Positions 1 through 28,623 of a stretch of DNA of 40,371 nt are shown here, in pieces. The translations under genes and the position numbers were made by a program. A model generated the notes under the pieces. The model saw only the letters and a program-made list of their open reading frames with translations, made no database searches and was not told where the DNA came from. Within the stretch, counting starts at the first letter, position 1. Each line of letters opens with the position of its first letter. The DNA is from Ignavibacteria bacterium GWF2_33_9 (GTDB taxonomy: Bacteria > Bacteroidota > Ignavibacteria > Kapaibacteriales > UBA2268), in NCBI GenBank assembly GCA_001804565.1, contig MHAC01000011.1, positions 1 to 40,371 of the forward strand. Reading direction: 5' to 3'.

Positions 1-595
1 TTATGTATGTTTCCTCGGAAATGGAGGAACAAAAAGTCTTTATTTACTTAAACTAGATGGTGAAGAAATAGGATTTTCTGGAATGAAGAATTATTATTCT
101 GTTACTTTTACAAATGATAGTAAAAAAGTATTATTAGAAGGGATGGGAAGCGATAATAAATGGGGATTGAGAGTACTAGATTTGAATTCAAGGAATTTTC
201 AATATCAATTTTCGAAACCATCAATCCATGTAGCGATTAATTCAAATAACGAGATATTTACAGGTAAAAATGAAATAAGACTATATTCTAACAACTGGTA
301 CACAGTTGGAGTGAATGTACCCAAAGAGCCGCAAGCGGCAATCTTCCCCAACCCCGCAACGGAATATATTGAGGTAAACGTAGGGGCAATTCATGAATTG
401 CCCCTACAGGAAGAAGGTGTGTCAGATGCAATCCGAATTTTCGATATATTTGGGGATGAAATGCATCCACCCCGCCCTTCGGGCACCCCTCAAGAGGGGA
501 ATAAATACAGGATTGATGTTTCCACTTTGCAGGCGGGAGTGTATTTTGTGAGGATTGGGAATGAGAAACCGATGAAATTTATGGTAGTGAGGTAA
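1..595 (+). CDS. T9SS cargo protein, C-terminal part (beta-propeller-like)
   Basis: The reading frame is open from base 2 to the stop at 593-595, so this is the 3' part of a gene that begins outside the window; the first internal ATG (83) is not its real start. The visible part has short beta-strand repeats (for example KSLYLLKLDGEEIGF and WGLRVLDLNSRNF) like WD40 or YVTN propeller blades. It then has a type A T9SS sorting domain: FPNPATEYIEV near the start and GVYFVRIG at the end. Such domains send proteins across the outer membrane and are usually cleaved at the surface. Two extra peptides, VGAIHELPLQ and PPRPSGTPQEGN, interrupt the sorting domain; both are encoded by palindromic DNA repeats at 380-407 and 469-500. 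The final 55 bases are nearly identical to a gene end at the right window edge. The T9SS call is solid; the role of the propeller is unknown. Confidence 0.8.
   Translation, partial: YVCFLGNGGTKSLYLLKLDGEEIGFSGMKNYYSVTFTNDSKKVLLEGMGSDNKWGLRVLDLNSRNFQYQFSKPSIHVAINSNNEIFTGKNEIRLYSNNWYTVGVNVPKEPQAAIFPNPATEYIEVNVGAIHELPLQEEGVSDAIRIFDIFGDEMHPPRPSGTPQEGNKYRIDVSTLQAGVYFVRIGNEKPMKFMVVR
380..407. repeat. 28-nt perfect palindrome inside a coding sequence
   Basis: The left half is GTAGGGGCAATTCA and the right half is its exact reverse complement, so all 14 base pairs match. It is read in frame as part of the peptide VGAIHELPL within the T9SS sorting domain. It shares length, a GTAG-type left end, a CTAC right end and a CATG centre with the intergenic palindromes at 25121-25148 and 25155-25182. 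Confidence 0.9.
469..500. repeat. GC-rich double-hairpin repeat inside a coding sequence
   Basis: Two adjacent hairpins: GCCC-TTC-GGGC at 474-484 and CCCCTC-AA-GAGGGG at 486-499. The stretch is far richer in G and C than its surroundings. It is translated in frame as roughly PPRPSGTPQEGN within the T9SS sorting domain, where such a proline/glycine-rich segment is unexpected. From memory, similar CCCGCCCTTCGGGC elements recur in some Bacteroidetes genomes; no database was checked. Confidence 0.7.
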
Positions 596-24134: not shown

Positions 24135-24233
24135 ATGCAAAGTAGCTATTCCCAAAAATTTCAATTAAGAATTTATACTTATCCCCAATCCCCGAGCGCC
24201 GAAGAAGAAATCAAGATAGTTGTGGAGGGATAG
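24135..24233 (+). CDS. Possible 32-residue peptide with Shine-Dalgarno
   Basis: An ATG at 24135 with GAGGAAA (24121-24127) upstream opens a 33-codon frame whose product begins MQSSYSQKFQLRIYTYPQS and ends EEEIKIVVEG. An intrinsic terminator at 24244-24268 follows directly. The Shine-Dalgarno and terminator suggest a transcribed unit, but a frame this short in a gene-poor gap can arise by chance, and no function is recognisable. The 550-base gap 23941-24491 otherwise contains the stem-loop at 24031, the palindrome at 24240 and a possible small membrane peptide on the other strand. Confidence 0.25.
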   Translation: MQSSYSQKFQLRIYTYPQSPSAEEEIKIVVEG

Positions 24234-24239
24234 GTATTT

Positions 24240-24268
24240 GTAGAGACGCCATGCCTGGCGTCTTTTTT
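24240..24268 (+). terminator. Palindromic repeat forming an intrinsic terminator
   Basis: AGACGCCA (24244-24251), loop TGCC, then TGGCGTCT (24256-24263), directly followed by a run of T (24263-24268). The left end is GTAGAGAC, as in the palindrome at 25121, but the right-hand CTCTAC end is replaced by the T run. It reads as a family repeat turned into a terminator for the plus strand. Confidence 0.75.
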
Positions 24269-24491: not shown

Positions 24492-24722
24492 ATGGAAACA
24501 GTATTAAAAGATGAATTGGTAAAAAAAATTTTGTCATTAGCTCCTATGGACAGAATTGAAATCGTGGATAAAGTAATGGATGGTTTTATCTCGAATGATG
24601 AATATAATTTTGATTCAGTTTGGGCAGAAGAATCAGAACGCCGAGTAGATGCAGTTCACGAAGGTACCATTCAAATGATACCTGCTAATGAAGTTTTTTC
24701 AAAAATTAATAATCTGAAATGA
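24492..24722 (+). CDS. Addiction-module antitoxin (unstable antitoxin family)
   Basis: 76 residues. The start METVLKDELVKKILSLAPMDRIEIVDKVMDG and the end ERRVDAVHEGTIQMIPANEVFSKINN match the short 'addiction module component' antitoxins that pair with ParE/RelE toxins. Its stop overlaps the start of the toxin gene by four bases (ATGA at 24719-24722), the usual arrangement. It would bind and neutralise the toxin and may repress its own promoter. No operator was identified upstream, where the sequence is AT-rich. Confidence 0.88.
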   Translation: METVLKDELVKKILSLAPMDRIEIVDKVMDGFISNDEYNFDSVWAEESERRVDAVHEGTIQMIPANEVFSKINNLK

Positions 24723-25021
24723 AATTTGCAGTTTCATTTTTAGAACCCGCAGAGAAAGAATTATTTGATGCCGTTGAATATTACAATGAGCAACAATCAG
24801 GTTTAGGTTTTGAATTTGCTTTAGAAGTTCAAAAATCAATAAAGAAGATTATTAATTATCCTAATGCTTGGAGTAAATTTTCATCAAGAACCAGAAAATG
24901 TCATTGCAATCACTTTCCATATAGTATAATTTACTTCCTGAAAGAATCCGAAATAATAATTGTAGCAATAATGCATTCAAAAAGAAAACCAAATTATTGG
25001 AAAAAGCGAATTGAGAATTAA
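24719..25021 (+). CDS. RelE/ParE family toxin
   Basis: 100 residues. The family pattern is visible: VSFLEPAEKELFDAVEYYNEQQSGLGFEFALEV at the start, a middle NYPNAWSKFSSRTRKCHCNHFPYSIIYF, and the terminal IIIVAIMHSKRKPNYWKKRI. These toxins cut mRNA on the ribosome or inhibit gyrase; which one applies here cannot be told. The four-base overlap with the antitoxin supports a working pair. It is followed by a 225-base gap with two 28-nt palindromes. The pair may be mobile or a stabiliser of this stretch. Confidence 0.9.
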   Translation: MKFAVSFLEPAEKELFDAVEYYNEQQSGLGFEFALEVQKSIKKIINYPNAWSKFSSRTRKCHCNHFPYSIIYFLKESEIIIVAIMHSKRKPNYWKKRIEN

Positions 25022-25120: not shown

Positions 25121-25148
25121 GTAGAGACGGATCATGTTGTGTCTCTAC
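25121..25148. repeat. 28-nt imperfect palindrome, intergenic
   Basis: Halves GTAGAGACGGATCA and TGTTGTGTCTCTAC. The outer eight bases pair perfectly, the inner part only partly. It lies six bases from the next palindrome, between the toxin gene and CreD. Confidence 0.75.
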
Positions 25149-25154
25149 TAAAAT

Positions 25155-25182
25155 GTAAGGAACACGCATGCGTGTTCCCTAC
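25155..25182. repeat. 28-nt near-perfect palindrome, intergenic
   Basis: Halves GTAAGGAACACGCA and TGCGTGTTCCCTAC, with one mismatch (A instead of G at 25158). It shares its arm sequence with the repeat at 28596-28623 and its end design with that at 380-407. Confidence 0.85.
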
Positions 25183-28595: not shown

Positions 28596-28623
28596 TTAAG
28601 GAACACGCATACATGTTCCCAAC
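28596..28623. repeat. 28-nt diverged palindrome next to the sdh terminator
   Basis: Halves TTAAGGAACACGCA and TACATGTTCCCAAC. It has the same arm core as 25155-25182 (AAGGAACACGCAT and TGTTCCC) with several substitutions, so it is an older copy of the same repeat. Confidence 0.7.

Follow-up and report, generated by a model that had tools for sequence, protein, structure and literature searches.

Why should short palindromes keep the same ends while the arms between them differ from copy to copy, and why does one of them lie inside a gene for a secreted protein? Both questions are raised by a stretch of 40,371 nucleotides from Ignavibacteria bacterium GWF2_33_9 (contig MHAC01000011.1), which is called the window throughout. 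The original prediction grouped five places in it into one dispersed palindromic element, moved perhaps by a REP-type Y1 transposase encoded elsewhere. The palindromes belong to a known kind of small, probably mobile DNA element. We consider it likely that they are double-foot REPs of 28 or 29 nt with GTAG/CTAC ends, copied round the genome by RAYT proteins (TnpA_REP, HUH/Y1), and that in sorting domains they keep their site while their arms turn over. The features of the window are as follows.

83..595, + strand: gene encoding a type A sorting domain of T9SS (Por_Secre_tail); the 380-407 palindrome lies in loop 1 of this domain
380..407: double-foot palindrome GTAGGGGCAATTCATGAATTGCCCCTAC, whose in-frame translation, completed by the two bases that follow, is VGAIHELPLQ
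467..500: another dispersed repeat, whose translation is PPRPSGTPQEGN, situated in loop 2 of the sorting domain of gene 83..595
24240..24263: decayed copy, a 10-pair hairpin with a 4-nt loop; covariance model E = 2.7
25121..25148: imperfect 28-nt copy GTAGAGACGGATCATGTTGTGTCTCTAC, 11/14 pairs
25155..25182: 28-nt copy GTAAGGAACACGCATGCGTGTTCCCTAC, 13/14 pairs, 6 nt from the 25121-25148 copy
28596..28623: diverged copy that has mutations in each foot (TTAA...CAAC); covariance model 26.6 bits, itself a training sequence

Common feet and changing arms

The copy at 380-407 is a perfect 28-bp palindrome with 14/14 pairs, which recurs exactly at C50:13218 and with one mismatch at C35:356 and C50:20540 (labels such as C30, C51 and C34 denote contigs of this genome, and G-numbers denote genomes), and the copy at 25155-25182 has relatives at C25, C40:21023 and C54. 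When TA at positions 2-3, a right end of TAC or AAC and at least 11/14 pairs are taken as the definition, the window holds 3 places, while its dinucleotide shuffles average 0.02. Thus the places at 380, 25121 and 25155 stand as members of the family and that at 28596 is a diverged copy, while 24240-24263 is merely a decayed relative, in which the left half and centre are kept, the CTAC end is lost and CATG is off centre. E-values in the window are flattering since four of its copies (380, 25121, 25155 and 28596) were in the training set of the covariance model.

Two small observations concern the surroundings of the decayed copy. It is preceded, within 24196-24263, by a 3′-end remnant of a restriction-modification-type gene (EEIKIV...EG), and copies on C30 and C22 (L018; L007) likewise follow such a remnant. 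Two small adjoining frames at 24493-25021 resemble, by eye, an antitoxin and a ParE/RelE-type toxin.

Are these few copies all that the genome has? The strict pattern GTAGRGRC...GYCYCTAC occurs 20 times genome-wide and never in the reversed control, the loose pattern GTAGNG...CNCTAC gives 29 matches against 17 in the control, and the covariance model recognises 41 separate places (E < 0.1). The element is therefore dispersed, as predicted. In GC-rich genomes the loose pattern matched the control as often as the real sequence, and the strict one was used instead.

The claim that the arms differ and remain self-complementary also holds across the genome. Copies are 28 or 29 nt long. The arms fall into several self-complementary types, with 89.5% of the cells in the genome-wide alignment paired, and arm covariation scores 0.509 against 0.176 after shuffling (0/500 shuffles as high) and at most 0.181 with the strands slid; the weight lies on the inner columns, because the foot pattern supplied most rows of the alignment and a further three were chosen by eye. 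Across phyla the score is 0.481 against 0.113, in sequences that had been selected as palindromes. Bases adjoining the feet show an excess of pyrimidine pairs (58% versus 33%), from which we claim no target motif, since duplication has given copies common flanks and the palindromes were themselves part of the control.

RAYT genes with internal palindromes

What moves the palindromes? Three genes of the RAYT type are found in the genome, and all of them (3/3) carry palindromes in frame between the HUH and Tyr motifs, in keeping with the suspected REP-type Y1 transposase.

C30: RAYT gene, 197 aa; ETGLRPVS in frame twice in the NHxH-to-Tyr interval
C51: RAYT gene, 189 aa; VGVQNFEPLQ in frame in the NHxH-to-Tyr interval
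C34: RAYT gene, open frame of 206 aa; VGANGHSPLR in frame in the NHxH-to-Tyr interval

The three share the WQ and YI[QE]NNP motifs. Their HUH motif is NHVH in C34 and NHLH in C30 and C51, the latter with a residue beyond the published bracket NH[IFV]H. The C30 protein scores 67 bits, under the cut-off of 80 of the NCBIfam RAYT model, and the C51 protein, searched by sequence against the PDB, gave no match. The arm type inside the C51 gene recurs at C33:21057 and C65:19704, and the 29-mer of the C30 gene at seven further places; recurrences of the two types lie in sorting domains and in intergenic places. In addition, the C30 gene is flanked by a copy ending 19 nt upstream of its ATG and by a variant downstream.

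This arrangement is not peculiar to one genome. An internal double-foot palindrome is present in 37 of 80 RAYT genes from many phyla and in none of the shuffles, and nearly all of these internal copies sit soon after the HUH motif. Palindromes adjoining RAYT genes match the internal arm of the gene (0/2000 permutations as good). In a set of 148 genomes from the phylum, RAYT genes tend to accompany palindromes (51/54 versus 64/94, p = 1.5e-4, a value that includes shared ancestry), with palindromes present and a RAYT undetected in three of them, and for some arm types in the present genome a cognate RAYT was not detected.

In other RAYT groups, the enzyme cleaves single-stranded REPs next to a hairpin with a GTAG foot (PMC8266576). 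By analogy, the RAYT proteins here may act on single-stranded REP hairpins and copy the palindromes to new places in the genome, the cognate enzymes being most likely those of C30, C51 and C34. Such an enzyme would recognise a foot and a paired stem, as the covariation and work on other RAYTs suggest, so that the arm sequence would be free to change as long as it still pairs. Copies would then persist wherever an in-frame addition of 30 nt is harmless, of which the HUH-Tyr interval of RAYTs and two loops of T9SS sorting domains seem to be examples; the placement there is observed and the tolerance is our reading of it.

Another candidate mover is an IS200-like transposase encoded on C55, which at 70.5 bits lies above its model cut-off. 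No recognised palindrome lies closer to it than about 9.5 kb, and its motif YIENQEKHH resembles that of subclass 1.2, reported without REPs (PMC6006769), so that we regard this protein as a very improbable mover and the RAYTs as the presumable ones.

Several other arrangements of RAYT-like sequences were encountered. At C8:26291-30932 (G000, L031), a RAYT-like Y1 domain lies within a single frame of 1547 aa that has Eco57I/PglX-like methyltransferase domains, with the motif DPACGSG on one side of the Y1 domain and NPPY on the other; this frame contains many HILKDVVAE and NYTLQGVG repeats. A RAYT match at G025:C1:142098-142427 lies inside a frame of 1288 aa. Near-identical RAYT genes of Bergeyella and Capnocytophaga (L198 and L211) differ by an in-frame repeat expansion of 78 nt in the HUH-Tyr interval. 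In G018 (C155:53-670 and C67:93-474; L118), the 29-mer forms a tandem array with a period of about 118 nt.

Likeness to known REP families

Unlike REPINs, which consist of two inverted REPs around a spacer, the present elements are dominated by single palindromes footed at both ends. Rickettsia palindromic elements (RPEs) are a different element in a different lineage, and their likeness to the present palindromes is one of description. The likeness to REPINs lies in populations of palindromic sequences attributed to RAYTs (PMC3116915, PMC8049555), and that to RPEs in palindromes read in frame within unrelated proteins (cited in PMC3733652). Closer are the GTAG-tagged REP families of Di Nocera et al. 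(2013, PMC3733652), short palindromes with complementary stem variation, some of them intragenic, and with a link to RAYTs; theirs, unlike ours, have one unpaired tag. GTAG repeats are listed there for Proteobacteria, Cyanobacteria, Chloroflexi and PVC, and Bacteroidetes are absent from that list. The usual copy number of REPs exceeds 100 (PMC2817692), and in contrast to such classical, extragenic REPs at more than about 100 copies, there are 41 places here and at least 23 copies within sorting-domain genes.

The closest likeness is to the double-foot REPs of TnpA_REP subclass 2.4. In the description of Quentin et al. (2018, PMC6006769), these consist of a long hairpin with a 5' foot GT[AG]G and a 3' foot C[TC]AC, and their RAYTs have flanking REPs, in-frame REPs between HuH and Tyr, and the motifs NH[IFV]H, WQ and YIxNNP. 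Both feet, the perfect stem and in-frame REPs in RAYTs recur here, and the taxa, Bacteroidetes and Cyanobacteria, agree with the statement in the original prediction that similar sequences occur in these two groups. By these features, the present elements fit that subclass at the level of sequence. Since the features include copies within the transposase gene itself, the kind of element is already known. Not described in the parts of that paper covered here is a residence in T9SS sorting domains, where the present elements occupy fixed loops and show several arm types.

Residence and turnover in sorting domains

Where do the copies live? Many in-gene copies, that at 380-407 included, lie in the coding sequence of sorting domains of the type IX secretion system (T9SS), the tails by which proteins are marked for secretion; this the earlier reading overlooked. 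The gene at 83..595 matches PF18962 (43.7 bits) and TIGR04183 (29 bits), both above cut-off; its sorting domain spans 341-568, and the palindrome begins at codon 100. At least 21 of 53 palindrome places fall within the T9SS sorting domains listed, while 0.7 are expected, in a count that used at least 150 sorting-domain matches (32 kb of 2.65 Mb) and a set of places that takes in weak model matches, together with a small number picked out by eye, and whose duplicated copies are not independent. Among 134 sorting domains read, 23 have a recognisable copy, always in frame 0 (23/23), which is thereby favoured over one alternative and not two because one frame would hold a TAG stop. The second-loop copies (n = 19) start 18 or 19 codons ahead of the GxY motif, and six arm types occupy this site in this genome. 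To judge from the sequence alignment, the copies probably sit in surface turns. Matches at C75 and C84:67399 in the same scan were set aside by eye as chance. We found nothing relevant on T9SS and palindromic repeats in a search that covered mainly openly available papers; as far as this search reaches, in-frame palindromes at fixed sorting-domain loops, with different arms per site, are new.

Other dispersed repeats occupy loops 1 and 2 as well, namely PPRPSGTPQEGN, TPSSLRDATPQEGN, PPLEKRGLGGVL and NYTLQGVG; the peptide PPRPSGTPQEGN is at the identical position in sorting domains of C35, C79, C23 and C83. A guessed pattern for the NYTLQGVG family gave no matches. NYTLKGVV is another dispersed palindromic repeat at these loops, like PPRPSGTPQEGN and PPLEKRGLGGVL.

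At least 7 further palindrome places lie within 200 nt of a listed sorting domain. Could the palindromes then be RNA hairpins, transcription terminators or mRNA stabilisers, in which pairing is kept for the function of the RNA? Their nearness to sorting-domain ends and the RNA role proposed for REPs elsewhere (PMC3733652) speak for it. Yet many copies are within reading frames, G-U pairs are scarce in the cross-phylum palindrome set and a terminator has no need of conserved GTAG/CTAC feet, and we think this explanation very unlikely beside that of mobile double-foot REPs.

How, then, do the arms change while the site remains? Upstream of the palindrome, the sorting domains at C42:33402 and C87:42815 share 93% identity across 60 nt, and downstream of it 77%, while their arms, both good palindromes, agree at 33% of positions. 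If the arms had changed stepwise by compensatory mutation, flanks more diverged than these would be expected. Quasipalindrome correction, in which template switching between the arms keeps them paired and neither transposase nor selection is needed, is an established mutational process, and some copies do differ by single paired changes (L248). It cannot, however, make one arm type at unrelated loci or account for an exchange of 8 of 12 arm positions where the upstream flanks of two domains are so similar, and uncorrected asymmetric copies are present, C50:20540 being an example; it is a very unlikely explanation of the pairing. Downstream, C87:42815 is closer to C32:41345 (87%), whose arm is of the identical type, and recombination between paralogues breaking at the palindrome therefore fits as well as an exchange of the palindrome only.

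Such recombination would also be part of another history, in which a palindrome entered an ancestral sorting domain, which was later duplicated and recombined onto many secreted proteins, the element being no longer active. The palindrome-bearing domains form one homogeneous subfamily with the palindrome at a single codon position, the loops in G008 and G022 each hold mostly one arm type, and similarity partners switch between the upstream and downstream sides of the palindrome as recombination would make them do. Against it, six arm types share one site in one genome, and domains nearly identical upstream carry very different arms. Moreover, arms are common to sorting domains, RAYT genes and intergenic places, and therefore copying between unrelated places must have occurred at some stage. 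We hold co-duplication as the sole process to be doubtful, though a serious possibility.

The constant site with changing arms suggests an exchange of resident REPs or recombination at REPs, not repeated random insertion. For double-foot REPs moved by RAYTs, the likeliest routes of turnover would be replacement of the resident by another copy, or recombination between paralogues breaking at the palindrome. More tentatively, the resident REP might itself be the landing site: a RAYT would swap double-foot palindromes at the GTAG/CTAC feet, with position and frame kept and the arms turning over, and T9SS sorting domains would have carried such cassettes since before the genera of the family split.

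These paralogous secretion tails are a natural record of REP turnover, which bears on how RAYTs spread REPs, and such a set of constant sites and changing arms makes insertion, replacement and recombination testable against each other. They also suggest that mobile DNA can supply the sequence of T9SS sorting-domain loops, which should therefore not be taken as an adaptation unchecked.

The site is shared with other genomes of the family, which have other arms there. The genus-mate G001 has VGTGRDLSLQ in a second sorting-domain loop. Sorting domains of G022 have the 29-mer in the first loop and ACAGCATGCTGT in the second, and those of G008 have GAACGGCCGTTC in the first and mostly AATTCATGAATT in the second. 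An orthologous subtilase in G182, only 37% identical, is without the palindrome. In G008 and G022 (L275-L288), palindromes in sorting-domain loops persist although, over the whole genome, matches to the loose pattern do not exceed those in the control, as if the protein-coding copies outlived the others.
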